A stretch of DNA of 64,000 nt, taken from Sinorhizobium fredii (GTDB lineage Bacteria; Pseudomonadota; Alphaproteobacteria; Rhizobiales; Rhizobiaceae). Numbering within the stretch: the stretch's first letter is position 1; every line of letters begins with the position of its first letter. The DNA lies in assembly GCF_002944405.1 (NCBI RefSeq), contig NZ_CP024307.1, positions 1,942,501-2,006,500 on the forward strand. Direction: 5' to 3'. Below, in pieces: positions 526 to 46,818 of the stretch. Under the pieces are notes generated by a model. That model saw only the letters and a list, made by a program, of their open reading frames with translations. It made no database searches and was not told the origin of the DNA. The position numbers and the translations under genes are program-made.

Positions 526-666
526 GTGACGAACCCTGTCTCCGCTCGCGAGAATCAGAACGTGACTTTCCCTGCGTTTGCCGAACCCCCGGTTTTCCGG
601 ACGAATAGACACCCCGTCACCCCCGCCAGATGCGACCCAAACTCGCGTTTTGCCCCAAGGGTGATT

Positions 667-692
667 ACACTTTATTAGGGTTAATAAAGTGT
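667..692. promoter_or_regulatory. AT-rich perfect palindrome (11-bp arms)
   Basis: ACACTTTATTA and TAATAAAGTGT are perfect inverted arms around a GGGT loop. The site lies between the DUF455 gene (ends 705) and the M23 gene (starts 525), both on the minus strand. No T-run follows on either strand, so a simple Rho-independent terminator is unlikely. It could be an operator or an mRNA processing hairpin. The AT-rich arms stand out against the GC-rich surroundings. Confidence 0.5.
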
Positions 693-704
693 TGGTGTTT
701 TTCG

Positions 705-1532: not shown

Positions 1533-1536
1533 CAGT

Positions 1537-2013
1537 TCAGGCAGTGCGGAGAGTTTTCGCCGCGGCGAGAACTTCCTCGGCGTGTCCCGCAACTTTAACC
1601 TTTTCCCAGACGCGGCTGATGATGCCGGCTGCATCGATCAGATAGGTTGTCCGTTCGACACCCATATACTTCCGGCCATACATGCTTTTTTCCGCCCACA
1701 CACCGTAGGCGTTGACGACGGCCTTGTCTTCGTCCGCCGCGAGCGCGACAGCGAGGTCGTGCTTCTTGGCAAAGCGGTCATGGCTCTTGACCGAGTCGGG
1801 CGAGATGCCGATCAGCGCGACACGGGCCGCGGTGAATTCCTTAGAGAGACCGGAAAACGATATCGCTTCGACGGTGCAGGTCTTGGTGTCGTCCTTGGGA
1901 TAGAAGAACAACACCACCGGCTTGCCGCGAAGCGCGGACAATGAAATCGAGCCGCCGCCGTCGCGGGCGAGCTCGAAATCCGGAGCAGGATCGCCGGGCC
2001 GCAAAGGTGCCAT
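1537..2013 (-). CDS. bcp: Thioredoxin-dependent peroxiredoxin Bcp/PrxQ type
   Basis: 158 residues from ATG 2013 (an upstream in-frame start at 2070 would add an unlikely basic extension). Peroxiredoxins of the AhpC/TSA fold reduce hydroperoxides in the cytoplasm. Seen: GDPAPDFEL near the start, the FFYPKDDTKTCT motif with peroxidatic Cys46, and Thr and Arg positions expected for the active site. The resolving cysteine found five residues later in two-Cys Bcp proteins is replaced by Ile, and there is no other cysteine in the protein, so this is a one-Cys version that must be resolved by an external thiol. First gene of a probable bcp-DUF455 operon. Confidence 0.93.
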   Translation of the reverse strand: MAPLRPGDPAPDFELARDGGGSISLSALRGKPVVLFFYPKDDTKTCTVEAISFSGLSKEFTAARVALIGISPDSVKSHDRFAKKHDLAVALAADEDKAVVNAYGVWAEKSMYGRKYMGVERTTYLIDAAGIISRVWEKVKVAGHAEEVLAAAKTLRTA

Positions 2014-2363
2014 GTTTAAGCCTTTCTTACGCCAAGTTTTATCGACATTTCGCACATAGGGGATACCCAAGTTCGTCGGGGTCCGTCCAGTGCGTTTGCG
2101 GCTGCTTTGACAGCTGTCCGACGGCTCTTGTGGCTACGAGCCATAATGAATGCCATGTCGCAAGACAAAGGCCGCGCCTGGATCGAGCATCTTCGGATGC
2201 CAGGGATGGCCGTCGCGCGCTTTCCACAAGCAACCACAGCGAAGCGTGGTGACTTGGTCCGGCGATTTGTGATCTACAGGATAGGAACGACCCCGGGCGT
2301 ACACGATGTCTGTCCGGATAGGAAGAATGCAATGCAGCAAGCAGGTGGAGGAAACCCGCGCCG
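2014..2363. other. Intergenic region, divergent promoters expected
   Basis: This 350-bp spacer separates bcp (minus) from the AsmA-like gene (plus), so it must hold both promoters. No coding sequence is convincing. The only structure noticed is a short GCATC-TTCG-GATGC hairpin with a stable tetraloop at 2187-2200. A Shine-Dalgarno-like GGAGGA lies at 2347-2352 before the AsmA-like start. Confidence 0.5.
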
Positions 2364-5300: not shown

Positions 5301-5750
5301 TCGCTCGTTGGCGAACAGAAGCTGCAGTCGATGGTCTCGACGCCGGCCGGCCAGGATGGCCGCAGCCTAAATCAGGCGGTGCGCAGGGATATCGACGTGA
5401 GCACGGCCCGTTTCGAGCGAGGCTTCGCCCAGCTCCTCCTCGATCGCGGCGTCATCCGGGTCGACAGCGGCGTGCTGCGCGGGCTCGATGTCGGTGCCAC
5501 CTTCCAGGGCACGGTCCGCGACAGAAACGGCCGCATGGACATGACCGGCACCTTCATGCCGGCCTATGGCATCAACCGGTTGTTCGGCGAGTTGCCGCTG
5601 ATCGGCGTCCTGCTCGGTAACGGTCGCGACCGCGGCCTTCTCGGCATCACCTTCAAACTGACCGGACCCTTCAACCAGCCGAATCTGACGATCAATCCGC
5701 TGTCGCTCATCGCCCCGGGCGTGTTCCGCAGCATTTTCGAGTTTCAATGA
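2364..5750 (+). CDS. AsmA-like / DUF3971 envelope protein
   Basis: 1128 residues. Seen: a cytoplasmic N-terminus of about 40 residues, one membrane helix at about 41-66 (LRLFAKLLLCCLLVVF), then more than 1000 residues of beta-rich periplasmic sequence, ending in the conserved AsmA-C-like block near the C-terminus (TGTFMPAYGINRLFGELPLI, then GLLGITFKLTGPFNQP). Proteins of the AsmA/YhdP/TamB superfamily form long lipid-binding grooves and are thought to move phospholipids or influence outer-membrane assembly. The YhdP/DUF3971-type assignment is from these motifs and the length. The gene is single, with convergent tyrS downstream across a hairpin terminator. ATG 2364 is preceded by GGAGGA at a slightly long spacing; no better start precedes the membrane helix. 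Confidence 0.85.
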   Translation: MSDIRGERVCFRKEDIVALDALPSAQAHDPVLVHTHVSGGMLRLFAKLLLCCLLVVFVAVASLVAVIESGLVDGPLNARARTALNTALGANYKADVESTVVRLTGRGALALKARGVTLNDNASGRPVAKLAAVSIALDPLALMTGRIAVSRLEAEGGELDTGLLPRGEPIDLTAIRIADTGTALEKLFTHIDAMSRLTARSSTRTVQLSNLSLSMAGTRGRIVPIDVRTLAFARNDDGSIRVDGSVAIDGKEAQLEARAYGQGDSIAGIEAVFTSLPLSPFLYHGKSGSEEAFGIDASAEVSLKATRAAVGATPALTVGIRTSEGAFHAGGLVSALRPSELNASYDFDRSSVEILPSAVKIGRSVFPFTGALIDLDKVSEGSQPGFAVDLLLKDASSAPEDMQERPLSFDAKANGRFETGSHRLIFDELAISSPLGSMAGSLAVAFGDTSPQINFAAVSDRMQPTAVKQLWPWWVAKGARRWAIGNLFGGTVSDAQIEVSIPEGRIAGSDGELKLNENELNINFSIDNTRINIAGEIPPLRDTSGHFELRGERMTVQVGRGAAFFPSGRSVALNGGDFVIPDVYSKPLMAEMKIEVGGEADSIAELVSYKPIRALQKTPFLPEDFTGPMTALVGARFGLISNQNPPPPLWQAEMQLQKVTINRPISGREIADLSGTMRIDNTRAVLDADALIDGAEMRIALTEPVDTKANVTRTREISGTLDDAARRKIAPALSGIVSGPVSVEVSLSDDGSQSVKADLGKAALSLPWIGWSKGAGIAANAEFTVRKSEALTEISDFSIKGDGFGAGGNLRVDDGGLASARLHDVRLAAGDDFAVTVERAKGGYVVALTGSSADIRLPLARAKSESGSGDDGNVRISARLDRVVGFNGEVFFNVRFSHSARGQEIDDIDLSALTASGQAVVARLVKEGPDNTLELTTTDAGALGRFTDIYRNMRGGLLNLRLRDRGARSWRGTVDLRKFSLVGEQKLQSMVSTPAGQDGRSLNQAVRRDIDVSTARFERGFAQLLLDRGVIRVDSGVLRGLDVGATFQGTVRDRNGRMDMTGTFMPAYGINRLFGELPLIGVLLGNGRDRGLLGITFKLTGPFNQPNLTINPLSLIAPGVFRSIFEFQ

Positions 5751-5752
5751 AA

Positions 5753-5776
5753 AAGGCCGGCGCAGCGGCCGGCCTT
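5753..5776 (-). terminator. Rho-independent terminator of tyrS
   Basis: AAGGCCGGC and GCCGGCCTT form a 9-bp stem with a GCAGCG loop. On the minus strand the stem is followed by a T-run, so it terminates tyrS. It sits directly after the stop of the AsmA-like gene and may also act on that convergent transcript. Confidence 0.85.
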
Positions 5777-5803
5777 CATCGATTGACGCGGGGGGGGGGC
5801 CGT

Positions 5804-7057
5804 TCAGACGGGCCGCACCAGAATGTGTTTCTTCTTGCCGAGCGACAGCTTGACGACACCGTCGCCGGTGACGTCGCCGCTTCCGACGACGCGGCGCTCG
5901 TCATTGATCTGCTCGTCGTTGACGCGGACGGCGCCACCCTGCACGTGACGGCGAGCCTCGCCGTTCGATGCCGCAAGGCCGGCGCGCACCACCAGCGTCA
6001 GCAGGCCGAGACCCGATTCGAGCTCAGGAGCGGGGACCTCGATCGACGGCAGGTTTTCCGCAAGCGCGCCTTCCTCGAAGGTCTTGCGGGCCGTTTCGGC
6101 TGCCTGCTCCGCGGCTGCCCGACCATGCAGCATGGCGGTGATTTCGGTCGCCAGGATCTTTTTCACCTCATTGATTTCGGAGCCGCCGAGCTTGGACAGT
6201 CGCTCGATTTCCGACATCGGCAACGTCGTGTAGAGCTTCAGGAAGCGCGTGACGTCGGCGTCCTCTGTATTGCGCCAGTATTGCCAGAAATCATAGGAGC
6301 CGAGCATGTCGGGATTGAGCCAGATGGCGCCATTGACCGACTTGCCCATCTTGGCGCCCGAGGCAGTCGTCAGCAGCGGTGAAGTCAGCGCATAGAGCTG
6401 CGGCGTACCCATGCGATGGCCGAGATCGATGCCGTTGATAATATTGCCCCATTGGTCCGAGCCGCCCATCTGGAGGCGGCAGCCGGTCCGCTTGTATAGC
6501 TCCACGAAATCGTAGGCCTGCAGGATCATGTAGTTGAACTCGAGGAACGACAGCGACTGCTCGCGATCGAGGCGCGTTTTGACACTGTCGAAGGAAAGCA
6601 TGCGGTTAACCGAGAAGTGGCGGCCAACGTCTCGCAAGAACTCGAGGTAGTTGATACCCAGCAGCCAATCGGCGTTGTTGATCATCAATCCGTCAGTCGG
6701 GCCGTCGCCATAGCGAAGATAGTTGGAGAAGACGGTCTTGATACTCGCGATATTGGCAGCGATGGTTTCCGGGGTCATCAACTGCCGTGCCTCGTCCTTG
6801 AAGGACGGGTCGCCGACCATGCCGGTGCCGCCGCCCATGAGCGAGATCGGGCGATGACCCGTCGCTTGAAGCCAGTGCAGCATCATGATCTGGATAAGTC
6901 CGCCCGCATGCAGGCTCGGGGCCGTCGGGTCGAAGCCGATATACGCGGTCACGGTTTCCTTTCGGAACAGCTCATCGAGGCCGGCATCATCCGATGTGGT
7001 GTGGATGAAACCGCGTTCGTGAAGCGTGTGTAGGAAATCGGACTTGAACTCGGACAT
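5804..7057 (-). CDS. tyrS: Tyrosyl-tRNA synthetase
   Basis: 417 residues. Class I synthetase that charges tRNA-Tyr in the cytoplasm. Seen: the HIGH-like signature as SLHAGG (about 49-53), the tyrosine-binding region with GGSDQWGNI (about 198-206), the KMGKS loop at 236-240, and a C-terminal S4 RNA-binding domain from about 350. Length is normal for the TyrRS family. It stands alone, convergent with the AsmA-like gene and divergent from anmK; the 128-bp gap upstream must hold both promoters. A run of ten G bases (5790-5799) lies just beyond its stop codon. Confidence 0.98.
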
Positions 7058-7185
7058 AAGCTGTCTCTTTCGGCTTGTTTGGACGTCTGCGGCGGGCGTT
7101 TATCACTGTTTTGTCGAAAGTGCACGTTTTTGCTGGGGCAGCGTTTTGCTATGACCGGTGGCAACGGAAAGCGTGGAGGACGTCC

Positions 7186-8349
7186 ATGGGCAAGGTGTTG
7201 ACGGCGATCGGCCTCATGAGCGGCACGAGCATGGATGGTATCGACGTTGCTCTCCTCGAGACCGACGGCGAAACGATCGTTCGAAGGGGACCGTCAGCGG
7301 GATATGCCTATGAGCCGCGCTTCCGGGACCGGCTGAAGCAGGGGCTCGAGGATGCCAGGTCGATCCGCAAAAGGGACGAGCGACCGGGGACGCTGGCGGA
7401 CCTCGAGCGGGACATGACGTTGCTGCACGCACAGGCGGTCAAGGCATTCCTCAAGGAAAACAATCTATTGTCCGGCAATGTTGATGTAATAGGTTTCCAT
7501 GGACAGACGGTCCTCCACCGTCCCGACGAAGCCCTGACCGTGCAGGTCGGGGATGGAGAGCTGCTGGCGCGGGAAACGCTGACCGACGTGGTCTACGACA
7601 TGCGGGCGAACGACATGGCGCATGGCGGCCAGGGGGCGCCGCTGATACCGGCCTATCATGCCGCGTTGGCGGAAAGCATGTCGCAGAGCTCGGACATCGA
7701 CGCGCCCGTCGCCTTCGTCAATATTGGCGGCATTTCCAACATCACCTACATCGGTGCAGGCGAGGCTATCATTGCCTATGACAGCGGACCGGGAAACACG
7801 TTGATCGACCAGTGGATGGAGGCGCATGCCGGAATTCCCTATGACCAGGGCGGCATGGTTGCAGCCGAAGGGTCGGTGCTGCCGGAGCTTGCCGAGCGCT
7901 ACCTCGCTCATCCCTTCTTCTCGTTGGAAAAGCGCCGCTCGCTCGACCGCAACGACTTTTCGCCGCCGATCGCTGCAGAGGCGAGCCTTGAAGACGGGGC
8001 CCGCACCTTGGCGCATGTGACAGCGGCCGCCATAGTCCGGTCGGCAGCTCATCTTCCGCAAATGCCGGCGACTTACATTGTCTGCGGCGGCGGCCGCCTC
8101 AATCCTGTGATCATGCAGGACCTGGCCTTACTTGCAGAAGCAGCAGGCGGACGCGTGCTTGCGGCCGAGGCGCTGGGTCTGAACGGCGATTCGATGGAAG
8201 CCGAAGCCTGGGCCTACCTGGCCGTAAGATCGTTGCGCGGGCTGCCGTTGAGCTATCCCGCGACTACGGGCGTCATCCGGCCGGTAAGCGGCGGAACGTT
8301 GGCGAGGCCGGCGCCCGCGTCGACGGGCACAAACGCCGGGGCGGTTTAA
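7186..8349 (+). CDS. anmK: Anhydro-N-acetylmuramic acid kinase
   Basis: 387 residues. Phosphorylates and hydrolyses 1,6-anhydro-MurNAc to MurNAc-6-phosphate during cell-wall recycling in the cytoplasm. Seen: the N-terminal phosphate-binding motif [23 protein letters not shown] in the sugar-binding region, NIGGISNIT and [11 protein letters not shown] as nucleotide and substrate motifs, and the C-terminal [14 protein letters not shown] 7186 is preceded by GGAGGA with 5-base spacing, so the longer in-frame extension to 7075 is rejected. Divergent from tyrS, as is common in rhizobia. Confidence 0.96.
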
Positions 8350-22257: not shown

Positions 22258-22415
22258 CGAGCCCCCTCTGTCCGTTTGCCTGAGATTGTTATCCCTTCGG
22301 CGAGCGTAACCGCTTCTCTCCAGAGTCCTACCGGTACCTTGCTGGTCCTTTGGCCTGAGAGTTTCCGGGGCGGTTGCTCCTTCGGCACCGGATTGAACCG
22401 GTTTCTCCCAACAAG
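22258..22415 (-). promoter_or_regulatory. Tandem glycine riboswitch upstream of gcvT
   Basis: Two glycine aptamers follow each other on the minus strand. The 5' aptamer spans about 22415-22325 and the 3' aptamer about 22324-22258. Both carry the family hallmarks: a GGAGAG or GGGAGA start, a GCCGAAGG loop segment (seen as CCTTCGGC on the plus strand at 22294-22301 and CTTCGGCAC at 22380-22388), and the CTCAGGC(A/C)AA-GGAC core (22340-22357 and 22271-22287). Tandem aptamers ahead of gcv operons switch expression on when glycine is high. No T-run terminator lies between the second aptamer and gcvT, so control may be at translation. Confidence 0.93.
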
Positions 22416-22583
22416 ATCATCTCCAGATAACGGCGAAGGCCGGATTTTGGCAAGGGCGAATGTCGCGATGAAACATATTTTTGTCGCCATGGCTTCATCG
22501 TCGCTCTTGGGCGCGCCTGCGGCAAATCGGCCTTTGCATTTGAAGCGGATTGTGAATAACGAAGAGACGAGACAGAGGCGATC

Positions 22584-26176: not shown

Positions 26177-27700
26177 TTGATCGCTGAATACGACGAACTC
26201 GATGGCCTTGGCCTCGCCGACCTGGTGAAGCGAGGCGCGGTATCGGCATTGGAACTCGTCGAAACGGCCATAGACAGGATCGTCTCGCGAAATCCGCCCC
26301 TCAACGCTGTCATCCTGACCATGTTCGAGGAAGCGCGGAAAGCGGTAGACGAAGTTGACGCGGGCGCCGCCTTTGTAGGCGTCCCATTCCTTCTCAAGGA
26401 TCTGCTCGCAACAGTGGAAGGAATCCCGACCTCGCAAGGCAACCGCCTGCTCGCGAAGTTGCCGGCGACCGGCGACTCCGAACTGGTCACTCGATGGAAG
26501 AAGGCGGGACTGATCGTCCTGGGGAAAACAAACACTCCGGAGTTCGGCCTCACACCCTATACAGAACCAGACGCCTTCGGGCCGGCTCGGAATCCTTGGG
26601 ATCCGGATCGGACCCCTGGGGGTTCGAGCGGTGGTTCGGCGGCAGCGGTCGCGGCACGCATGGTGCCGCTTGCCTCGGGCGGCGACGGTGGTGGCTCTAT
26701 CCGCATCCCGGCTTCTGCCTGCGGGCTGTTCGGCCTGAAGCCGACCCGCGGCCGGACGCCTGCCGGACCGTTCACGGGGGAACCTTGCGCGGGCTTCGCC
26801 GTGGAACATGTTCTGACGCGCTCGGTGCGGGATTCGGCCACCCTTCTCGACCTTGTCCAAGGACCGGATGTCGGTGCGCCCCATTACCTGCCCTCACCGC
26901 CAGGGTCCTTTCTCGAAGCGGCGGGACGTCCGCCGGGGAAACTGAAAATTGCCGTATCGGCGGCTCCGATGCTTGGCGGGAAAGTAGAACCGGAGATCCT
27001 GCAAGCTTTTTCCGCCACTGCAAAACTGCTGGAAGAACTTGGTCACGACATTGTTGAGGCAGCACCGTCTATCGATGCCGAGGCGTTCTCCCTTTCGTTT
27101 CTGAGCGTCATCGCCGCGGAACTGCAAGTCGACATCGAAGAGGCGACGAGGGCGGCCGGTGTTCCGGTACGTGTTCAGGACTTCGATCCCTCGACACTCG
27201 GGATGGGTCTGCTTGGAGAGACACTTTCGGCAGGCGAACTTGCGGCTGCGCTACGCTATCTAAAGCTCGCGGCGAGAGGCGTTTCGCAATTCTTCGAAAC
27301 GTACGACATCCTGATGACGCCGGTGCTGGCGCGGGTTCCGCCGCCGATAGGATCGCTTCAGCCGTCTGCTGCCGAGAAGAAAATTATTCGCGCTGTGGGT
27401 CGGGTGAAGGCGGGCTGGCTCCTAAAAAGGATAGGCATCGCGAAGCGCCTCGCCGCCGAGACATTCAGCTTCATCCCTTGGACTCCCGTTTTCAATGTCA
27501 CGGGCCAGCCGGCAATGTCGGTGCCACTCTGCTGGTCGGACAACGACCTGCCGATCGGCATGCATTTCGTGGGACGCTTTGCCGACGAGGAGAGGTTGTT
27601 CCGCCTGGCCTGCCAGCTCGAAAAGCGAGACCATGGGTCCATCGTAAGCCGCCGCTCCGCAAACCTGTCTCTCCGTAGCCCGGGAGGTCCATTTCGGTGA
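26177..27700 (+). CDS. Amidase-signature enzyme with altered C-terminus
   Basis: 507 residues from TTG 26177, which has TTGGAGATGG upstream and gives a family-like N-terminus; GTG 26132 or ATG 26147 are alternatives. Amidase-signature hydrolases cleave amide bonds with a Ser-Ser-Lys triad. Seen: Lys74 in FLLKDLL, cis-Ser150 in TPGGSSGGS and Ser174 in DGGGSIRIP, so the catalytic centre is complete. Odd: the last 22 residues do not fit the family. In the frame reached by one extra base near 27621-27626 the sequence reads ARPWVHRKPPLRKP and stops at 27678, the usual end of this family. A one-base deletion has probably shifted the tail. Confidence 0.88.
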   Translation: MIAEYDELDGLGLADLVKRGAVSALELVETAIDRIVSRNPPLNAVILTMFEEARKAVDEVDAGAAFVGVPFLLKDLLATVEGIPTSQGNRLLAKLPATGDSELVTRWKKAGLIVLGKTNTPEFGLTPYTEPDAFGPARNPWDPDRTPGGSSGGSAAAVAARMVPLASGGDGGGSIRIPASACGLFGLKPTRGRTPAGPFTGEPCAGFAVEHVLTRSVRDSATLLDLVQGPDVGAPHYLPSPPGSFLEAAGRPPGKLKIAVSAAPMLGGKVEPEILQAFSATAKLLEELGHDIVEAAPSIDAEAFSLSFLSVIAAELQVDIEEATRAAGVPVRVQDFDPSTLGMGLLGETLSAGELAAALRYLKLAARGVSQFFETYDILMTPVLARVPPPIGSLQPSAAEKKIIRAVGRVKAGWLLKRIGIAKRLAAETFSFIPWTPVFNVTGQPAMSVPLCWSDNDLPIGMHFVGRFADEERLFRLACQLEKRDHGSIVSRRSANLSLRSPGGPFR

Positions 27701-28025
27701 TGTCGGCGGCCGCTGTCGCCCCCATCTCGTAAAGCCACGTATGGCGCAACGAACCGTGCCCGAGGATTCGAGCCATTGCGCGGGCTATTTCAGCATCGTA
27801 GCCCTGAACAAATTCGCAGCCGGCCAGCATCGTCATGATGTCCCCCCGAAGCTGAGCTTCCTTCTCGGCCTTGTTTCGCGCGAGAATGTCGAGGCCGCGC
27901 TCGATCGTCAAATAGGTGGCGAATGGTATGGCAATTACCGACCGCTCGAAGAACTCCTGGATTCCAGGCTTGGGGCGAGGCTTCAGCCGCTCGCTGAGAA
28001 GGCATGCAGTTACAAGAAATTTCAC
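27678..28025 (-). pseudogene. Remnant of a PIN-domain (VapC-like) toxin
   Basis: The frame opens with GTG 28025 behind a good CAGGAGA site. Its N-terminus MKFLVTACLLSE resembles VapC toxins (MKFLLDTCVLSE), but the catalytic Asp of the first motif is Thr. TIERGLDILARN matches the second PIN motif. After LRHTWLYE the sequence jumps to AADITEMDLPGYGE, as if the central part with the third and fourth acidic residues were deleted, and the frame then runs antisense into the amidase gene. No intact antitoxin gene precedes it. I call it a decayed gene; a repurposed protein is possible. The left end is placed near where the similarity ends. Confidence 0.5.
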
Positions 28026-28201
28026 TTTAGTCTCCTGAAGGATTCAGCCGTGTTCGACCGGCAGGAAGGAGACGTAAGGCCCCGCGGCGTCTAAAGTGTT
28101 AGGGCGCCGAATCGCTCGATATTTTTTCCTACTCGAATGTTTGCGGGAGTCCTAGGACTCACGCTTCAACGCCGTACATGTCCGGTGAGGACTAAAGCGT
28201 G

Positions 28202-28669
28202 CTAGACTGAGGCGGTCGTGTCAATCGTCAGCAGAACCCGGCGATCCTGAGCAGAACCGACCACGATCTGCCATCTGGAGAAGGCCGCGGTGATTTCGCT
28301 CTTGGCGACGTCGAGGACATTGACGACGAACCGGGCGAGGCCCGGCGTCTGTGGGTCTCCCGCCAGCACGCCCGCCTTCCCATCATCGATGACGAACGCA
28401 CCCGCCCTTGTCTGCCACGGGTCGTATTCGCCGATCGACCGCTCATCGACTTCGATCTGAACGTTTGGCACGACGATGCCAGGGTTACGGAGCCGCACAG
28501 ACTTCTTGCACGCACCATAGTTGTGCTCATGGCTGAGGAAGACGAAGAAGGGAGTGTCGTCCACCATGCCGACGAGGCCAGGGCGCTGCCGTTCCGAACG
28601 GGGCAGAATGAGGCTGCAGACGGCCGCTTCGGCTACGTCCCCAACTGCGAATTCAGAGATCGAAAGCAT
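28202..28669 (-). CDS. Unknown protein coupled to the TIR gene
   Basis: 155 residues from ATG 28669. Not recognised. Seen: no signal peptide or membrane helix; a beta-rich composition with MVDDTPFFVFLSHEHNYG, several Asp/Glu and a run of alternating hydrophobic residues towards the end (VVNVLDV, RRVLLTI). The TIR stop codon TAG at 28684-28682 is part of the TAGGAGA ribosome binding site of this gene, so the two proteins are probably made together. Last gene of the cassette. It could be an immunity partner, a sensor or an accessory subunit; the sequence does not tell which. Confidence 0.6.
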   Translation of the reverse strand: MLSISEFAVGDVAEAAVCSLILPRSERQRPGLVGMVDDTPFFVFLSHEHNYGACKKSVRLRNPGIVVPNVQIEVDERSIGEYDPWQTRAGAFVIDDGKAGVLAGDPQTPGLARFVVNVLDVAKSEITAAFSRWQIVVGSAQDRRVLLTIDTTASV

Positions 28670-28681
28670 CAATCATTTCTC

Positions 28682-29659
28682 CTATCGCTGCCGTTGTAGA
28701 GGCTCCATGAAGATCGACCAGAGCAGCTCTGCGCCGCCTTCAGATGAAAGGTTTGTATCGGACGTGCCTCCGAACCTCATTCCGGAACTCTTTAGGAAGA
28801 GGGATTGGTCGTCGTTCTGGACCCTGAGCATCTCGTTGAACGAATTGCTCGCAGACGTTTCGCCATCGGAGTAGGCGATGCCGTCGACGAAGCCGCGACC
28901 ACCGCCCACGAACACGGTACATCGGCTCAGGGCCTTTCCATTCCGATAGGCCGACGCGGTGAACCGATCGCCGTCGATACGACGAAAGTCACTTTCGACG
29001 CCGGCGTTGCGCGATTGAAGCTCCTTCAAGGAATTTTCGAAGTACTTTGCCAAGAACTCGAAGCTTTCCCGTTTGTATCGATCACGGTCGCGGTCGGTGA
29101 AGGTCTTCGTCATTCGCAGGTTGCTGGAGCGCGGAGCTTCGGAGAGAAGTTGCTCGACTGCAGAAGTCTTGAAAGCGCGATCAGCCGACGTTGCCGAGGG
29201 AGCAGCTCCGGCACTGCGCTTGCCGACACGTTCCACCGCCGCTCGAACTGCTTTCGCAACCTCCAGGAAAGCCTGGTCCCGATCCGTAGCCTGCGTGATC
29301 GGACGTCCGTCTGGAGGGCTGGCGTTCAGCTTTCCGAACGGCGCGCCGTGCCAGTCGCAGGCCCGAAGTATCACGGGAATGACGACCGCGCTGCCTGCCT
29401 CGTGACGCTCCATCGCCACTGTCATCTCCCGATCATAGCAGTAGTCGGAGTTGATGAAATCGGGACTTACAAGGAGGAGGATGATGTCGGCCGTCGTCAA
29501 GTTCCTGCTGATGGCGGAGTCGATCTCCTCGCCAGCGCCGATCCGTCGATCATGCCAAGTCTCTACGACGCCCTGGCGTTTCAGGATCGACAACTGCTTC
29601 TCAAGTTGATCCCGAAGTGCTTCGTCGACATGGGAATATGAGAAGAAGACACTTGCCAT
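28682..29659 (-). CDS. TIR-domain protein with separate C-terminal domain
   Basis: 325 residues. Seen: an N-terminal TIR domain (about 1-145) with FFSYSHVDE at strand A, WHDRRIGAGEEID in the BB-loop region, and SPDFINSDYCYDREM, where Glu78 sits at the position of the catalytic glutamate of NAD-cleaving TIRs. A low-complexity linker (about 148-165) leads to a C-terminal domain of about 150 residues (TFTDRDRDRYKRESFEFL through LLWSIFMEPLQR) that looks like a separate, probably sensory, module. Bacterial TIR proteins often act in antiphage defence by consuming NAD or making a signal. Neighbours on the same strand are an unknown protein, an ImmA/IrrE peptidase and a XRE repressor. GGAG precedes ATG 29659. 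Confidence 0.88.
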   Translation of the reverse strand: MASVFFSYSHVDEALRDQLEKQLSILKRQGVVETWHDRRIGAGEEIDSAISRNLTTADIILLLVSPDFINSDYCYDREMTVAMERHEAGSAVVIPVILRACDWHGAPFGKLNASPPDGRPITQATDRDQAFLEVAKAVRAAVERVGKRSAGAAPSATSADRAFKTSAVEQLLSEAPRSSNLRMTKTFTDRDRDRYKRESFEFLAKYFENSLKELQSRNAGVESDFRRIDGDRFTASAYRNGKALSRCTVFVGGGRGFVDGIAYSDGETSASNSFNEMLRVQNDDQSLFLKSSGMRFGGTSDTNLSSEGGAELLWSIFMEPLQRQR

Positions 29660-29729
29660 TCATTACTCCAGAGGTTGTTTCATACTTGAAGAGCGACACC
29701 ACCCTGGCCGGGTGATGCCGCCGTCTACG

Positions 29730-30389
29730 TCACGCCCCAGTGCGGGGTTCGCCCAGTTCTGGCGAAGCGGGAATGCCAAGTTCAGTACGAGCCGCCGTGA
29801 ATTGCACGTCGAGAAGCTCGAGGAGCCGTTCGCCCAGTGCTCTCGTTTCACGGTCGGCCTCGGACCACCGGTAGAGCATCCGGTCACGGAGCGAGAGCAC
29901 CGCGAAATCGTCAGGCCGGCTCTCCATAGGATGCCGGGCGGCGACGGAGCTCAATGCCGCCCGCACCAGATGTCCGCTGAGATCATGCTGCGTGTTCCAC
30001 AGGTGCACTGCCGTCATTCGTCCTCCGATCTCCAAACAGAAGTCCGGGATAAACTCCACCTTGAACAATCCCGCAGGACTCACGAAAGTTACGGGTGGAG
30101 ACGAAAGCATTGCGCCCGGATGCCCGTCCTTCCACTCGAAGAACTGCTCCAACGCTCGGCGAGCCGAATTCCTTTCTGGCTCACGGGAGATCTGCTGCGT
30201 AGAGGTGAGCGCTGCTGCCAGCGACAGCCCTTCAAATGAGACCTGCTGGACACGATAGCGAAAGCTCTTATGGAAGTCATAGCCGCCCGAACTGGGGCGG
30301 CACCGCTGCCGAACGATCGTCCGTTGGGGGCGGGGGTTGCTGTTTATAATCTTCAGATAGGCGGAGAAGCCTATTTTCGGAACTGACAT
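29730..30389 (-). CDS. Unknown 219-residue protein of the TIR cassette
   Basis: 219 residues; ATG 30389 has AAAGGTC upstream. Not recognised. Seen: a basic N-terminus (RPQRTIVRQRCRPSSGG), a central helical part, then beta-strand-like KVEFIPDFCLEI followed by AVHLWNT and helices to the end. The PDF...xVxL order recalls the core of PD-(D/E)xK nuclease folds, but the ExK half is not present, so at best this is an inactive or divergent relative. It lies between the ImmA/IrrE gene (110 bp gap) and the TIR gene (70 bp gap), same strand. Confidence 0.6.
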   Translation of the reverse strand: MSVPKIGFSAYLKIINSNPRPQRTIVRQRCRPSSGGYDFHKSFRYRVQQVSFEGLSLAAALTSTQQISREPERNSARRALEQFFEWKDGHPGAMLSSPPVTFVSPAGLFKVEFIPDFCLEIGGRMTAVHLWNTQHDLSGHLVRAALSSVAARHPMESRPDDFAVLSLRDRMLYRWSEADRETRALGERLLELLDVQFTAARTELGIPASPELGEPRTGA

Positions 30390-30499
30390 GCTAAGACCTT
30401 TTCAACAGTCGCGGTCGGTCATCAAAGATGTTGGCAACCGCAGGATTGGATTGCACGGCAGATGAGATCTCGCAGCCCGCTTTTGCGGTGGGCAGTCCC

Positions 30500-31072
30500 T
30501 CACGTTGTTCTGATCGCGTACACCTCCGGCCACTTCGACATCGTGATGTTGCCCAGACAGACTCTCAGCGGAGTGCCTGTCAGCATCGCCAGCTTATGCG
30601 GCTCGTGTCGGTATAGGTAAGAAAGGTGAGGAGGCGCCAGGAAGTGCCGTGCAAACATGTCGGCCTGGTCCTCGATGCTTTCAGTTGCCTTCATGTCACG
30701 GATCGGCTGGACGGCGCCGCGCGGATCCTTGTGCATGGAGACGTCCTTCTCCCGGTGCAGGAGGAAATGACCAAGTTCGTGCGCGAGAACGAGCCTCGCT
30801 TCGACGTCTCCGTCGCACGCTGCGACGTAGACCGACTGTCGGACCGTAATCCGGCCCTTCAGCGGCTCGGCGAGCGCGTCTTCCTTCATTTCGGTATCGC
30901 GAGCAATCACCAGCCGAAAGTCCGGAAACCTCGAGACCAGCTTGAACTCTATGATATCGACGATGTCGACGAGTTCGACATGCTGCATGTCGAACTCGTT
31001 CCGGTACTTCAAAGCCTCCTTCATCATCTTCGGAGTGCTCAATCCTCGGGATGTGAAGTAGTCCTTTGCCAT
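30500..31072 (-). CDS. ImmA/IrrE-type metallopeptidase
   Basis: 190 residues. Seen: the gluzincin motif in LAHELGHFLLH (His98, Glu99, His102) and the downstream third ligand region IEDQADMFARHFLAP (Glu134), the hallmark of the ImmA/IrrE family (PF06114). Such peptidases cleave a partner HTH repressor in mobile elements and in the DNA-damage response of Deinococcus. Here its gene overlaps the end of the XRE regulator gene by 34 bp, so the pair is probably the sensor-protease and repressor that control the cassette. No membrane segment. Confidence 0.88.
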   Translation of the reverse strand: MAKDYFTSRGLSTPKMMKEALKYRNEFDMQHVELVDIVDIIEFKLVSRFPDFRLVIARDTEMKEDALAEPLKGRITVRQSVYVAACDGDVEARLVLAHELGHFLLHREKDVSMHKDPRGAVQPIRDMKATESIEDQADMFARHFLAPPHLSYLYRHEPHKLAMLTGTPLRVCLGNITMSKWPEVYAIRTT

Positions 31073-31401
31073 GTTTCACGATACCTTTTTAGATCGACGA
31101 CGGGGGCTGCACGAAGCTGCCCGGCTGTGTCGACGTTTTTCGTCGACTCCTTGTTGCGTTCTTTACGGAGCATCTTCGAGAAAGCATCGATATCGATGCC
31201 AAGGAAGTCGCAAAGCGTCTCCCGTTCGATTTCCGTCAGGGGATTGAGCCCAGCTTCCACGTCGCTAAGTGCCGTGATTTCGATCCCGGTCTTCTCGGAA
31301 AGTCCATGGAACGTCCATCGGCAAGCCTGGCGTTTGTGCCGGACGAGGTCACCAAAATTGCGCAACGCGGCCTTCAGGCCGACGTCTTCATTGTCGGACA
31401 T
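31039..31401 (-). CDS. XRE-family HTH regulator
   Basis: 120 residues. Seen: a helix-turn-helix at about 15-75 with WTFHGLSEKTGIEITALSDV and LTEIERETLCDFLGI, typical of Cro/CI-type XRE proteins, then a basic, flexible C-terminus (MLRKERNKES...). GAGGTG precedes ATG 31401, and a CTATAG element lies just upstream of that. Its 3' end overlaps the ImmA/IrrE gene. Likely the cassette repressor and substrate of the peptidase; inferred from gene pairing. Confidence 0.85.
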   Translation of the reverse strand: MSDNEDVGLKAALRNFGDLVRHKRQACRWTFHGLSEKTGIEITALSDVEAGLNPLTEIERETLCDFLGIDIDAFSKMLRKERNKESTKNVDTAGQLRAAPVVDLKRYRETWQRTTSHPED

Positions 31402-31436
31402 GCGTCACCTCACTATAGGTTTTTGAGCATGCGAAG

Positions 31437-31459
31437 GAGGCGCCTGCTCGAGGCGCCTC
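31437..31459 (-). terminator. Hairpin between the small gene and the XRE gene
   Basis: GAGGCGCC and GGCGCCTC are perfect 8-bp arms with a 7-base loop, six bases after the stop of the small gene on the minus strand. No T-run follows. It may end or attenuate the transcript of the small gene so that the XRE gene relies partly on its own promoter. Confidence 0.5.
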
Positions 31460-31465
31460 GAACGC

Positions 31466-31624
31466 TTACTTGCGACGGCTGGGCTCACCCTTGGTGTCGC
31501 CATAGCCGGCTTTCGGGATGCGCGCGACGGTCGTCGTGTTGGGACGAGCCTCGGCTTGCTTCACAGTGATGAACTGACCCGAACGAGAGTCGCGTCCAAC
31601 GTCGAATGTCTTACGTGCACTCAT
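31466..31624 (-). CDS. Small basic hypothetical protein
   Basis: 52 residues from ATG 31624, with AAAGGAA upstream. Seen: RDSRSGQFIT followed by VKQAEARPNTTTVARIPK and a basic end (GEPSRRK). The RDSxTGxF(V/I)T...PxTT pattern is shared by many very small bacterial proteins of unknown role, which supports it being a real gene. No membrane segment. First gene of the minus-strand cassette that leads to the XRE, ImmA/IrrE and TIR genes. Confidence 0.6.
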   Translation of the reverse strand: MSARKTFDVGRDSRSGQFITVKQAEARPNTTTVARIPKAGYGDTKGEPSRRK

Positions 31625-32270
31625 TTTCCGTATTCCTTTCCAGGATCGTGGATAAACAAACGACACCAACTCGACAGAGAGACCCGAATCCTCCTATAGT
31701 GCTTTTGCAAAACGCAGGGGATTTCGGTCTCCATGCCATGCGAATGTCGCATTGGATATTCGCAAGATATGCCGCAGCCGGGTGTAGGAGCTCGGTTGCG
31801 GTATTGCGGAGATAGGCCTCCGTTTTCTCAGCGAAAAAGCCTCCTTTCTCTCTACTGATTCGCACCCTTGAGGCTACGATATTGAGCCAAAAAAGGGAAG
31901 GGGAATCCCTAAAAAACTGTTAAATTTCAGTGCCCTACGATCTTCCATTGATGCGTCGCGGCAATCTAAGTCTGAAAGGGCGAGCAACTTTGTTCACTGC
32001 GCCCTCGTATCACGGATCAAGCGGCGGCATGGGTTAATACGCCGCTCGATCAGTACTCGCATCTCAGTTCGAAGCTCCAGCCGCATGCGCGCCTGGAACT
32101 GTTTTCGTAAGCCTCGTTCCAAAGGAAGAGATGGTTTCGCTGAGCCGTTACCAGTTGCAGGTGCCGCGAACTTTGTGCGCCTGTGCAATCAGTAGATGCG
32201 AATTGTCCCTTTTCCTTTCGTTTTAGACCGGGTTTATGTGCGCGTTACAGGTAGCAGCAACTAACCGCTA
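31625..32270. other. Long AT-richer intergenic region
   Basis: About 650 bp between the small gene of the TIR cassette and the nrdJ stop. Base composition is visibly more AT-rich than the flanking housekeeping genes, notably 31850-31930. Seen: the TTTTGCAAAA palindrome near 31703, an inverted repeat TGCGAAT-N12-ATTCGCA around 31740-31765, and no convincing gene. A short open frame at 31994-32188 has no recognisable product. This may be the right-hand edge of the inserted segment. Confidence 0.5.
31700..31716 (-). promoter_or_regulatory. Candidate operator of the TIR cassette
   Basis: TGC-TTTTGCAAAA-C-GCA is a near-perfect palindrome centred at 31707-31708. It lies about 75 bp upstream of the small-gene start, directly next to CTATAG (31694-31699), which could be the -10 element on the minus strand. 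The palindrome would then fill the promoter spacer, a good place for an XRE repressor. The -35 element is weak. Confidence 0.4.
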
Positions 32271-35200
32271 TTAGCTGCACCCGCTTGTAGCACCGCACGT
32301 ATCGCACTTCTCGCACGTGCCGTTCCGCACCATCGTGAAGTTCTGGCACTCGGAGCACATGTTGCCGGTGTAGCCCTGCATGATCGAGCGGGCCCGGCGT
32401 TCGGCTTCGACCTTCTTGGCTTCCGACTTGGCGGAAGCAGCTTCTGCCGCGGCCTTGTCGGAGAAGAGGGCGGTCACTTCCTGCTCGACTTCTTCGGCGA
32501 TCTCCTCGGCAAGCTCTGCGGCGCGCTCCTCATAGTCGCGCTTGAAGGCGACGACTTCCGAGGTGGCTGTTGCCGTTGTCGGCTCGAGCTTGCGGACGGC
32601 ATTGCCGGTGATCGAGGTGACCGTGGCGCCGCCCGAGGCACGGGTCGGGGCGCCGGTCGAGGCACCCCTCGGCTCCGAGCGGTCGCCGGAGCCGCCGACG
32701 ATCGTCGGCTTGTAGCCGCGGGTCCAGCCGGTCGAGACGAGGTTGGTCTTGCCTTCCTGGATGCCCCGGCCGAGCGCCGTGTTGCTGAAGTCGGAAGTGT
32801 CGACGTGCGCCAGGTCGTGGCGGCCGAGATAGGAAACGGCGAGTTCGCGGAACACGTAGTCGAGGATCGACGTGGCGTTCTTGATCGCGTCGTTGCCCTG
32901 GACCATGCCGGCCGGCTCGAACTTGGTGAAGGTGAAGGCCTCCACATATTCCTCGAGCGGCACGCCGTATTGCAGGCCGAGCGAGATGGCGATGGCAAAG
33001 TTGTTCATCATCGCGCGGAAGGCGGCACCTTCCTTGTGCATGTCGATGAAGATCTCGCCGAGGCGGCCGTCGCCGAACTCGCCGGTGCGCAGATACACCT
33101 TGTGGCCGCCGACGATCGCCTTCTGGGTATAGCCCTGGCGGCGGTTCGGCAGTTTTTCGCGGGCGCGGATGACCTTTTCGATGACGCGTTCGACGATCTT
33201 TTCCGTCACGGCGACCGCCTGCGCGGCAGCCGGCGCGTGCAGCAGCTCCTCGATCGCTTCCTCGTCTTCCTCGTCTTCGATCAGCGAGGCGTTCAGCGGC
33301 TGGGACAGCTTCGAGCCGTCGCGGTAGAGCGCGTTGGCCTTCAGCGCCAGCTTCCAGGAGAGCATATAGGCGTTCTTGCAATCCTCGACGGTCGCCTCGT
33401 TCGGCATGTTGATCGTCTTGGAGATCGCACCGGAGATGAAGGGCTGGGCGGCCGCCATCATGCGGATGTGGCTTTCAACCGAAAGATAGCGCTTACCGAT
33501 TTTGCCGCAGGGGTTGGCGCAATCGAAGACCGGCAGGTGCTCGGCCTTGAGGAAGGGCGCGCCCTCGAGCGTCATCGCGCCGCAGACGTGGATGTTGGCG
33601 GATTCGATATCCTTCCTCGAGAAGCCGAGATGCTCGAGGAGATTGAAGTCCATCGAGGCAAGCTGCTCGTCGGTGACCTTCAGCGTGCCCTTGAGGAAAT
33701 CGGCGCCGAGCGTCCACTGGTTGAAGACGAACTTGATGTCGAAAGCCGACTTCAGCGCCCCATTGACGGCATCGACCTTTTCGTCGGTGAAGCCCTTGGC
33801 CTTCAGCGTCGTCGGGTTGATGGCGGGTGCCTGGTTGAGATTGCCGTGGCCAACAGCATAGGCCTCGATCTCGGCGATCTGGCTTTCCGAATAGCCGAGC
33901 GTCCTGAGCGCCTCCGGAACGGCACGGTTGATGATCTTGAAATAGCCGCCGCCGGCGAGCTTCTTGAACTTCACCAGCGCGAAATCGGGCTCGATGCCGG
34001 TGGTGTCGCAATCCATGACGAGGCCGATCGTGCCGGTCGGCGCGATAACGGTCGCCTGGGCATTGCGGTAGCCATGCTTTTCGCCGAGTTCAACGGCCTT
34101 GTCCCAGGCGCTCTTGGCGTGGGCGATCAGCTCCTGATCCGGGCAATCGGTGTGGATGAGTGCGACCGGGTTGACCGACAGGCCTTCATAGCCCGTGGTC
34201 TCGCCATGGGCTGCGCGGCGGTGGTTGCGCATGACGCGCAGCATGTTGTCGCGGTTCGGCGCAAAGCCGGGGAAGGGGCCGAGCTTGGCCGAGATTTCCG
34301 CTGAGGTCGCATAGGCGACACCAGTCATGATGGCGGTCAGCGCGCCGGCGATGGCGCGGCCTTCGGCCGAATCATAGGGGATGCCGGAGGACATCAGGAG
34401 GCCGCCGATATTGGCATAGCCGAGGCCGAGCGTCCGGTACTCATAGGAGAGCTCGGCAATTTCGCGCGACGGGAACTGCGCCATCATCACCGAGACTTCG
34501 AGAACGACCGTCCACAGGCGGACGGCATGCTCGTAGTCGGCGATGTTGATCCGCTTGCTGGCGGCATCCTTGAACTGCATCAGGTTGAGCGATGCGAGGT
34601 TGCATGCCGTGTCGTCGAGGAACATGTATTCCGAGCACGGGTTGGAGGCGCGGATCGGGCCGGCCGCCGGGCAGGTGTGCCAGTCGTTCATCGTCGTGTT
34701 GAAGTGCAGGCCCGGATCGGCCGATGCCCAGGCAGCATAGGAGATCGACTCCCAGAGGTCGCGGGCCTTCAGCGTCTTCATCACCCGGCCGTCCTTGCGG
34801 GCTGTCAGCTGCCAATCGTCGTCCGCTTCGACGGCGCGCAGGAAGTCGTCCTTGATCGAAACGGAATTGTTGGAGTTCTGGCCCGAGACCGTCAGATAGG
34901 CTTCCGAATCCCAATCGGTGTCATAGGTCTTAAACTGAATGTCCTTGTAGCCCTGGCGCGCGAACTGGATGACGCGCTTGACATAGTTTTCCGGCACCAG
35001 CGCCTGCTTGGCGGCGCGGATCTCGCGCTTCAGCGCCGGGTTCTGCTTCGGATCGAAGCAGGCGTCATCGCTGCCGTCGCAATTGACGCAGGCCTTCATG
35101 ATCGCCTTCAGGTGCTTGGCGACGATCTTGGAGCCGGTGACGAGGGCTGCGACCTTCTGCTCTTCCTTGACCTTCCAGTTGATATATTCCTCGATATCCG

Positions 35201-36062
35201 GATGGTCGATGTCGACGACCACCATCTTGGCGGCGCGGCGCGTCGTGCCGCCCGACTTGATGGCGCCGGCGGCGCGGTCACCAATCTTCAGGAAGCTCAT
35301 CAGGCCCGACGACTTGCCACCGCCCGATAGCTTCTCGCCCTCGGCGCGCAGATGCGAGAAGTTGGAGCCGGTGCCCGAGCCGTATTTGAAGAGACGCGCC
35401 TCGCGGACCCAGAGGTCCATGATGCCGCCCTCGTTGACGAGGTCGTCGCCGACCGACTGGATGAAGCAGGCATGCGGCTGCGGGTGCTCATAGGCCGACT
35501 TCGATTTCGTCAGCTTGCCGGTGAACGGGTCGACATAGAAATGGCCCTGCCCGGGACCATCGATGCCATAGGCCCAGTGCAGGCCGGTATTGAACCATTG
35601 CGGCGAATTCGGCGCGACGCGCTGGGTGGCGAGCATATAGGCGAGCTCGTCACGGAAGGCGCTGGCGTCTTCTTCGGTTTCGAAATAGCCGCCCTTCCAG
35701 CCCCAATAGGCCCAGGTGCCGGCGAGGCGATCGAAAACCTGCCGGGCATCCGTTTCGGAACCGTATTGCTCGTCCTTCGGCAGCGCCTTCAGCGCCTCGG
35801 TGTCGGGAACCGAGCGCCACAGGAAGGAGGGGACGTCGTTCTCCTCGACGCGCTTCAGCTTGGCCGGCACGCCCGCCTTGCGGAAATATTTCTGCGCGAG
35901 AATATCGGCGGCCACTTGGGAGAATTGCGCCGGCACGTCGATATCGGCGAGACGGAAGACGATCGAGCCGTCCGGATTCTTGATCTCGCTCGTCGCCTTG
36001 CGGAATTCTATCTCGGCATAGGCGGACTGCCCTGCCTTGGTGAAACGACGTTCGATCTTCAT
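32271..36062 (-). CDS. nrdJ: Adenosylcobalamin-dependent (class II) ribonucleotide reductase
   Basis: 1263 residues from ATG 36062, behind AAAGGACGGG; a longer frame to 36206 overlaps the NrdR boxes and is rejected. Reduces ribonucleotides to deoxyribonucleotides using B12 and no oxygen-dependent radical subunit. Seen: [15 protein letters not shown] and [11 protein letters not shown] in the N-terminal half, the active-site [37 protein letters not shown], and a C-terminal Cys-rich zinc-ribbon end (MCSECQNF... CEKCDTCG). In S. meliloti the homologous enzyme explains the need for B12. No cobalamin riboswitch was found upstream, but two NrdR boxes were. Confidence 0.97.
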
Positions 36063-36171
36063 TGTCCCGTCCTTTGTTGCCATGCGCCTCGGCGCAATTG
36101 TCCGTCCGGCCGCGAGAGGTCCCGCAGCCAGCTTCAGCTTCCGTATCTCTAGAGGAAACCCAAACCCGGGT

Positions 36172-36218
36172 ATCCAGTATCTTGTGGTGAGGCTGGCTGC
36201 AAACACTAAATATAGTAT
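36172..36218 (-). promoter_or_regulatory. Tandem NrdR boxes upstream of nrdJ
   Basis: Box 1 at 36203-36218 (ACACTAAATATAGTAT) matches the NrdR consensus ACACWATATATWGTGT at 14 of 16 positions. Box 2 at 36172-36187 (minus strand CCACAAGATACTGGAT) matches at about 11 of 16. Their centres are 31 bp apart, three helical turns, which is the known arrangement of paired NrdR boxes in ribonucleotide reductase promoters. Confidence 0.75.
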
Positions 36219-46498: not shown

Positions 46499-46614
46499 AA
46501 AAAAAAGGGCCGCAAGCGAACTTGGGCCCTGTCAGTTGTGAAGGTTTCATAACCTCCAGAGGGGAACAGCTGATGCGGCGGCCGGGGAGGAGGAAGCCGC
46601 CAGATGCACCAACT
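46499..46614 (-). ncRNA. abcR2: Trans-acting sRNA of the AbcR (ar15) family, copy A
   Basis: About 115 nt on the minus strand. Seen: a sigma-70 promoter upstream, a CU-rich loop (CCTCCTCCCC) able to pair with ribosome binding sites, the conserved GTTCCCCTCTGGAGG segment, and a GGGCCC...GGCCC terminator ending in eight T. Copy B 200 bp away is nearly the same in all of these. The position next to lsrB matches the AbcR1/AbcR2 pair of Sinorhizobium, Hfq-dependent sRNAs that repress ABC-transporter mRNAs. Which copy is AbcR1 or AbcR2 is my recollection of the gene order. Confidence 0.88.
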
Positions 46615-46620
46615 GAAAGC

Positions 46621-46649
46621 TATATGGGGAGCGCGTCGCGCGCGTTCAA
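46621..46649 (-). promoter_or_regulatory. Promoter of AbcR copy A
   Basis: On the minus strand TTGAAC (46649-46644), a 17-base spacer and CATATA (46626-46621) form a good vegetative promoter. The predicted start is near 46614, which fits the conserved 5' end of the sRNA. Confidence 0.8.
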
Positions 46650-46698
46650 TGGCTTCGCCGCAGATTTTCGCAACTGATGGCTGTGCCTATTTGCGGGC

Positions 46699-46818
46699 AA
46701 AAAAAGAGGGCCACAAGAAAACTTGGGCCCTTGTAGTTGTGAAGGTAATTAGAACCTCCAGAGGGGAACAGCTGCTGCGGTGGCACTGGGAGGAGAAGCC
46801 ACCAAAGATGCATCAGCT
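46699..46818 (-). ncRNA. abcR1: Trans-acting sRNA of the AbcR (ar15) family, copy B
   Basis: About 120 nt on the minus strand. Shares with copy A the CU-rich loop (here CTCCTCCCAG), the GTTCCCCTCTGGAGG segment, and a terminator (GGGCCC...GGCCC then seven T). Differences between the copies fall mainly in paired or linker positions. The two sRNAs have separate promoters and terminators, so they can be regulated independently, as reported for AbcR1 and AbcR2 in S. meliloti. Confidence 0.88.

Follow-up and report, generated by a model that had tools for sequence, protein, structure and literature searches.

Positions 28202-31624 of a 64,000-nucleotide stretch of Sinorhizobium fredii DNA (hereafter the window) hold six genes, one of which encodes a TIR-domain protein. 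A sequence-only reading took them for a single defence cassette, in which an XRE repressor and an ImmA/IrrE peptidase would control a TIR effector and two accessory proteins. Are these genes one conserved system, or do they comprise separable pieces that have landed side by side?

Gene content and position of the locus

An ORF check places all six ORFs on the minus strand with the content listed in Table 1, and each has homologues elsewhere, making them more than chance ORFs; the gene set and its place, as first read, are thus confirmed.

Table 1. Features of the locus, in window coordinates
Feature	Length (aa)	Position	Strand	Assignment
U175		27498-28025		neighbour ORF, no Pfam family
Whole insert		27734..32250	.	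defined against the empty site of relative G913
U155	155	28202-28669	-	no Pfam family; small partner, next gene after TIR
TIR protein	325	28682-29659	-	Pfam TIR_2, E 1e-14
U219	219	29730-30389	-	no Pfam family; RecB/Cas4-like PD-(D/E)XK fold (predicted model)
ImmA/IrrE-type metallopeptidase	190	30500-31072	-	Pfam Peptidase_M78, E 7e-9
XRE-type DNA-binding protein	120	31039-31401	-	Pfam HTH_31, E 6e-6
Small protein	52 (from its ATG)	31466-31624	-	conserved before XRE
nrdJ		32271..36206	-	NCBIfam NF005736, 2377.5 bits

A close relative (G913) has an empty site, with 62 bp between the same flanks (blastn). Positions 1-224 of a query in window-strand orientation aligned with 1-224 of G913 (94%) and positions 4742-7829 with 287-3389 (89%), delimiting a block, missing from the relative, of ~4.5 kb just 3' of nrdJ, starting ~20 bp past that gene. 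The locus had been described as sitting in a housekeeping region between an amidase gene and nrdJ. This holds for the flanks, which are indeed nrdJ (B12-dependent ribonucleotide reductase, by NCBIfam) and the amidase gene (by Pfam), but not for the stretch between them.

Within the insert, the ImmA and XRE genes overlap by 34 nt and the later gaps, going downstream, are 110, 70 and 12 nt; a scan for promoters and terminators returned 1 promoter (1.7 expected) and 7 terminators (5.2 expected).

A variable slot at the 3' side of nrdJ

All 33 genomes of the genus carry nrdJ, and among 21 genomes pairwise coverage was 0.21 on its 3' side as against 0.95 upstream. In other genomes this side is occupied by CBASS, Gabija, a caspase-helicase or another TIR, and in one genome the slot has CBASS genes next to Gabija genes. 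In another family, a relative of the TIR gene lies 373 nt 3' of nrdJ (locus L058). Among the papers listed, our literature search did not find a hotspot at nrdJ in print, and the main text of a paper on integration hot spots of S. meliloti does not contain the term "nrdJ". Being small and easily cloned, the slot is a place to seek more rhizobial defence systems.

The TIR protein and its neighbour U155

The TIR protein is matched by the PADLOC ThsB model PDLC00420 over residues 1-325 (E 2.7e-140) and belongs to a very large family, with at least 6,598 of 7,997 scored proteins reaching E <= 0.001; it occurs at full length in 6/33 genomes of the genus. In the predicted model, a TIR domain (residues ~1-147) is followed by a variable linker and a C-terminal domain of a helix and six strands (~189-325). 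PF27176 was present in 119 of 120 TIR homologues among the matches listed, and the C-terminal domain that had been proposed for this protein is borne out. A PDB sequence search with that domain gave chance-level matches only, and in fold comparison of the model the match lists were filled by the TIR domain, which thus masked the C-terminal one. Glu78, presumably the catalytic glutamate of TIR NADases, is invariant in all 50 alignment rows, and we infer that the protein is an NADase. One relative sits inside a type I R-M operon, flanked by hsdS and hsdM (L059). A phage-borne TIR was considered and rejected, since none of 50,697 phage records matched at E <= 1e-5.

Translational coupling of the TIR gene and U155 is plausible, because the ATG of U155 lies 12 nt past the TIR stop and an AGGAG overlaps the stop codon. 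The two genes had been read as translationally coupled; they do not overlap, being separated by that gap. A Pfam scan of 18 U155 homologues returned single weak matches only (best 0.0085), and a PDB sequence search one chance-level match at 0.15.

The pairing recurs across genomes. U155 adjoins the TIR gene in 6/6 genomes of the genus with a full-length TIR (one of them partial) and directly follows it in 6/6 such genomes in Rhizobium. When the best TIR per genome was taken from 18 other genomes, U155 followed seven of the eight at 58-64% identity and none of the ten at 33-51%. Starting from U155, a TIR gene lies directly upstream in 10 of 11 loci, and in five of five plasmid records with U155 a TIR is beside it (three by sequence, two by coordinates). 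The separations seen are a U155 in two pieces on opposite strands without such a TIR (G439), a U155 without TIR in the 314 nt up to the contig end (L065), a TIR remnant kept where U155 is absent (G639) and a second, partial TIR match (query residues 1-169) without adjoining U155 (G819). A search of viral contigs gave 18 stretches for U155, none confirmed. Judged by these gene neighbourhoods, TIR and U155 are a mobile pair, with U155 the constant neighbour of close TIR relatives. Among the papers listed, neither titles nor abstract beginnings mention a small partner of this kind for a TIR gene. This constant neighbour, the invariant Glu78 and a variable site with known defence genes in some relatives uphold the defence-like nature first suggested for the locus.

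Could the pair be of toxin-antitoxin type, with an NAD-depleting TIR toxin neutralised by U155, serving to maintain mobile DNA and giving defence as a side effect? A small partner directly downstream of TIR would suit such a role, as would the pairs on plasmids and, in L107, a pair with a Fic gene and a TraG-type coupling protein next to it. However, the antitoxin gene comes first in most known toxin-antitoxin pairs, whereas U155 is second. Same-family TIRs without U155 exist, as in the ten distant loci above, and therefore U155 is not needed by the TIR fold; the slot, moreover, is variable and carries defence genes. We judge this explanation unlikely.

U219 and the small protein-XRE-ImmA genes

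The predicted model of U219 has the fold of the RecB/Cas4/AdnA PD-(D/E)XK nucleases, but without (D/E)xK: on the strand where it would be expected, residue 130 is L/I/V, 131 is W and 132 is N in 46/46 rows, and residue 116 is D in 28, N in 17 and T in one (catalytic residues were mapped by eye). U219 is thus probably without nuclease activity. Its gene has nrdJ upstream in 16 of 26 loci, and no match was found on plasmids. U219 as an accessory of TIR was rejected, as a TIR of the window type occurs in none of the 27 U219 loci, and we regard it as a separate passenger.

The small protein has tblastn matches of 73-85% in L008, L010, L017 and L084, in the last of these directly before U219. XRE, which scores 26.9 bits against HTH_31, just under the cut-off of 27, has homologues of 41-71% beside ImmA in L008, L010 and L017. 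ImmA retains an intact HELGH, a motif present in 4/4 sequences; its match to PADLOC capP (2.9e-10) is partial (residues 53-150), and capH gave no match. The three genes accompany U219 in 3/27 U219 loci. Outside the window, XRE/ImmA occur with U219 in three genomes but were not seen with this TIR in any.

These distributions bear on the single six-gene system, in which XRE would repress the operon and ImmA would cleave XRE on stress, after which TIR and its accessories U219 and U155 would be expressed. Several observations are in its favour: the shared strand, the overlap of XRE and ImmA and the gaps that follow; the precedent of CapH+CapP (PMC13373217), together with the capP match; and a different TIR gene behind the same XRE-ImmA-U219 block in G439, so that a TIR gene follows U219 in two of the four genomes seen with this block (window included). 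On two public contigs (308,230 and 156,321 bp), judged by equal contig size, relatives of U219 and TIR also appear to co-occur, and therefore the composite may persist as one unit. Against this, no U219 locus has this TIR type, ImmA of this type is present in 2/33 genomes of the genus as against six with the full-length TIR, and U219, XRE, ImmA and the small protein had no match in any of 15 TIR-U155 pair loci (five of which are only ~4 kb long). The six-gene order was not conserved in the loci examined, with U219 found apart from this TIR type. We consider the six-gene system rather unlikely, and the initial picture of a single cassette, controlled by XRE/ImmA and including two accessory proteins, is not sustained. 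The locus looks like three separable pieces (TIR and U155; U219; small protein-XRE-ImmA), the last of which seems a passenger separate from the TIR pair; control of TIR by XRE/ImmA is putative.

A proposed two-gene abortive-infection module

The explanation we favour, with confidence a little better than even, is an abortive-infection module of a TIR NADase and U155, its new dedicated partner, forming part of a composite insert in the variable slot at the nrdJ 3' end used for defence genes, with the upstream block separate. The defence core would be two genes. The C-terminal domain of TIR may be the sensing or assembly part, and U155 would be a co-translated partner that either restrains TIR or relays the trigger to it. 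Phage infection would make the TIR domains cluster and consume NAD+ via Glu78, and the infected cell would stop growing. The small protein-XRE-ImmA-U219 block would be a separate module that landed beside the pair; cleavage of XRE by ImmA may add stress-induced expression, which would be optional for the pair.

More tentatively, at somewhat under even confidence, we propose that TIR and U155 make up a two-gene defence system not described before, with U155 as a new partner class (an inhibitor or a sensor, which a phage component would release or activate, respectively), and that defence genes in Rhizobiales use the nrdJ 3' end as a landing site on the chromosome. A partner dedicated to one branch of this very large TIR family would give a handle on the switching of TIR proteins that lack ThsA, CD-NTase and Argonaute.

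Comparison with known systems

The locus had been said to match no named TIR system. The TIR family itself is known, given the full-length match to the ThsB model as in Thoeris; the claim stands for the partners of those systems. No ThsA adjoins TIR, nor was one found among the small protein, XRE, ImmA, U219, U155 and TIR (PADLOC), U175 and the amidase (Pfam) or nrdJ (NCBIfam); the constant neighbour here is U155, without a recognised domain. TIR-pAgo (SPARTA) differs in its short Argonaute/APAZ, for which the six genes and two neighbours gave no match, and TIR-containing CBASS in its CD-NTase (cyclase), unmatched in the six genes.

In a Thoeris variant, TIR would be a ThsB producing cyclic ADPR as a signal, and the effector answering it (an orphan SIR2 or U155) would be unlinked or unrecognised. 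Such a variant would draw on the ThsB match and on an orphan 291-aa SIR2 protein of this genome (9.9e-31 to ThsA). Yet the genes scanned at the locus include no ThsA, and the orphan SIR2 lies on another contig and aligns with ThsA positions 5-227 of 478 only, so that it seems to be without the signal-binding part. The SIR2 is also unmatched in the 15 pair loci, and U155 has no recognisable effector domain. This variant appears very improbable.

In CapH+CapP, the repressor of neighbouring immune operons is reported to be cut by a protease that ssDNA activates (PMC13373217). The block here resembles it in lying next to a defence gene and in its gene order, HTH and then an ImmA-like peptidase carrying HExxH, but differs in the partial capP and missing capH matches, and in being tied, outside the window, to U219 and not to CBASS.

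The favoured TIR-U155 module resembles, in its proposed action, SpbK, a TIR NADase for which abortive infection and clustering of the TIR domains are reported (PMC12847820). Unlike SpbK as presented there, TIR is followed here by a dedicated second gene; the likeness lies in the TIR domain of a predicted NADase that would act by abortive infection.

Gene content of the insert

The window is part of contig C1 in a 6.56-Mb genome of four contigs, and its relatives are Sinorhizobium/Ensifer; the closest named TIR relative among the matches listed is from S. meliloti (97%). The six minus-strand ORFs of the sequence-only reading (a 52-aa small protein, XRE, ImmA/IrrE, the 219-aa U219, the 325-aa TIR protein and the 155-aa U155) are indeed found at 28202..31624. 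TIR and the ImmA-type peptidase were recognised by Pfam, the XRE protein has an HTH_31 match barely under the cut-off, and the same scan gave no family for U219, U155 or the small protein. The XRE and ImmA genes overlap by 34 nt and are followed by gaps of 110 nt (ImmA-U219), 70 nt (U219-TIR) and 12 nt (TIR-U155), with the AGGAG of U155 overlapping the TIR stop codon. No RNA families were detected inside the insert (Rfam, gathering thresholds); those detected elsewhere in the window are tabulated.

The proposal that these genes form one undescribed six-gene cassette was mostly not borne out, as the small protein, XRE, ImmA and U219 were not found in 15/15 TIR-U155 loci (tblastn of all four and a U219 profile search; ten loci span 5.4-17 kb and five just ~4 kb). 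What remains is a smaller new thing, namely the TIR-U155 pair and a variable slot 3' of nrdJ.

TIR and U155 as a pair

Across the order sample, TIR occurs in 13/397 genomes (E <= 1e-40) and U155 in 3/397, the window's own included in both. Six of 148 genomes in the genus Rhizobium carry TIR, all with U155 next downstream; one, G819, has an additional, partial TIR match that lacks U155. With one best TIR per genome for the 18 other genomes from the order and Rhizobium searches, U155 lies downstream in 7/8 at 58-64% identity and in 0/10 at 33-51%, and the lone TIR of the former group without U155 (locus L054) is interrupted by a stop. Full-length TIR is present in 6/33 genomes of the window's own genus, with U155 adjacent in every case (partial in G930), and the pair occupies the nrdJ slot in the window alone. 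Five plasmid records hold U155, with TIR immediately upstream in the three read and beside it by coordinates in the other two. At 11 U155 loci, TIR is 2-15 nt upstream in nine and 239 nt upstream in one (Sulfitobacter), while the eleventh (L065) has no TIR in the 314 nt of sequence present upstream. Exceptions are G439, with U155 pieces and no TIR of the window's type, and G639, with a TIR remnant and no U155. A rival to the function favoured below is that TIR and U155 constitute a toxin-antitoxin system.

On a Sulfitobacter mediterraneus plasmid (L036) a 1438-aa ORF, without Pfam or PADLOC match, overlaps the end of U155 and is possibly a third gene of the module there. Pairs at L107-L110 and L035 have in common a convergent gene beside them, which is Fic according to Pfam (L107) or annotation (L035) and begins with the same sequence at the remaining loci. 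On its opposite side, the L107 pair is flanked by a TraG-type coupling protein. In L059, a distant TIR of the same family begins 2 nt past hsdS and overlaps hsdM by 4 nt.

Coordinates of features and defence-type cargo in nrdJ slots
Feature	Location	Coordinates	Assignment
Glycine riboswitch	window	22333-22420	Rfam
U175, beside amidase	window	27498-28025	
Insert	window	27734-32250	
nrdJ	window	32271-36206 (-)	NCBIfam
Two ar15 alphaproteobacterial sRNA genes in tandem	window	46501-46818	Rfam
1438-aa ORF	L036	6453-10766	
DNA methyltransferase and PRTase-CE gene downstream of TIR-U155	L037, Bradyrhizobium plasmid	4981-7250	
Distant TIR between hsdS and hsdM	L059	4614-11321	type I restriction operon
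Orphan SIR2 protein, 291 aa	L105, own genome C4	1135-2010	resembles ThsA
DUF1883-TIR	G439 slot		PDC-S66 8e-71
1361-aa protein	G439 slot		AAA_16 under cut-off; LmuA-like 3e-7
TIR remnant	G639 slot	~0.4-0.8 kb into region	
Caspase domain fused to DEAD-box helicase	G919 slot, L150	8755-11862	Peptidase_C14 3e-13
CBASS	G927 slot, L157		cyclase 1e-143; E1-E2 5e-211
Gabija, after CBASS	G927 slot, L157		GajA 3e-228; GajB 6.5e-175
Homologues of G927's two CBASS genes, and JAB	G932 slot		JAB 7e-63

A variable slot 3' of nrdJ

nrdJ is present in 33/33 genus genomes. The sequence 3' of it was read in each, as 31 newly taken regions, a previously read locus for G439 and the window itself, and extends just 1.4 kb in G931 and 1.0 kb in G935. 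In G913, 62 bp separate the nrdJ tail from the U175/amidase flank, and the insert is missing as a single block. Among 21 genomes (the window and 20 hand-picked from the other 32), mean pairwise blastn coverage is 0.95 in the 5 kb upstream of nrdJ (pieces including up to ~110 bp of nrdJ) versus 0.21 in the 5 kb downstream (median 0.00), and is lower downstream in 420/420 ordered pairs; this contrast is descriptive and not a significance test, insertions also displacing common DNA beyond 5 kb and kin genomes being non-independent. The 3' side of nrdJ is a variable slot.

Among selected ORFs, a subset of those present, defence-type genes were found in the slot of 6/33 genomes (the window, G439, G639, G919, G927 and G932). 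Behind the caspase-helicase gene of G919 comes a 216-aa protein assigned to no family, and the CBASS and Gabija genes of G927 all lie within ~9 kb 3' of nrdJ. Against a defence site, however, G928 holds an IS110 transposase together with an anion channel and a regulator of AraC type, G720 a 366-aa ORF with no match, and G914 a 647-aa ORF with TPR matches only and none in PADLOC; in many genomes, moreover, window homology picks up again within ~0.3-1.5 kb. UvrD helicases in the slots of G526 and G912 are ambiguous as defence cargo.

The XRE-ImmA-U219 block

In favour of a single unit, protein matches on contigs of equal length suggest that relatives of U219, U155 and TIR lie together on a contig of 308,230 bp, and those of U219 and TIR on another of 156,321 bp. 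G739 has U219 and an apparent TIR relative (P0076) on the same chromosome, with no TIR in the 19 kb read around U219. The block is followed by a different TIR gene in G439 and by a response regulator and histidine kinase in L008; it may therefore serve as a general controller, with new cargo being added after it. Such a reading is reasonable given CapH+CapP, which control adjacent immune operons upon DNA damage (PMC13373217).

Possible function and relation to known systems

In an alignment of 49 homologues, mean identity is 77% over TIR residues 1-147, 60% over 177-325 and 17% in the linker, making the TIR domain the best-conserved part of the protein, and Glu78 is invariant. The C-terminal domain is modelled as a long helix, six strands and a helix, and would be the natural candidate for a sensor or assembly part.

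Thoeris proper was rejected on ThsA, none of which adjoins TIR. The orphan SIR2 protein covers model positions 5-227 of 478 only, the SIR2 half of ThsA, and has a weak Dsr2 match too; a second SIR2_2 protein of this genome has no PADLOC match at 1e-6.

For the TIR-U155 pair we favour infection-triggered NAD+ consumption, in which infection would lead TIR to consume NAD+ and U155 would act as its dedicated regulator or sensor, because of the TIR conservation, the invariant Glu78, the C-terminal domain and the precedent of SpbK, a TIR NADase whose clustering on a phage portal protein leads to abortive infection (PMC12847820).
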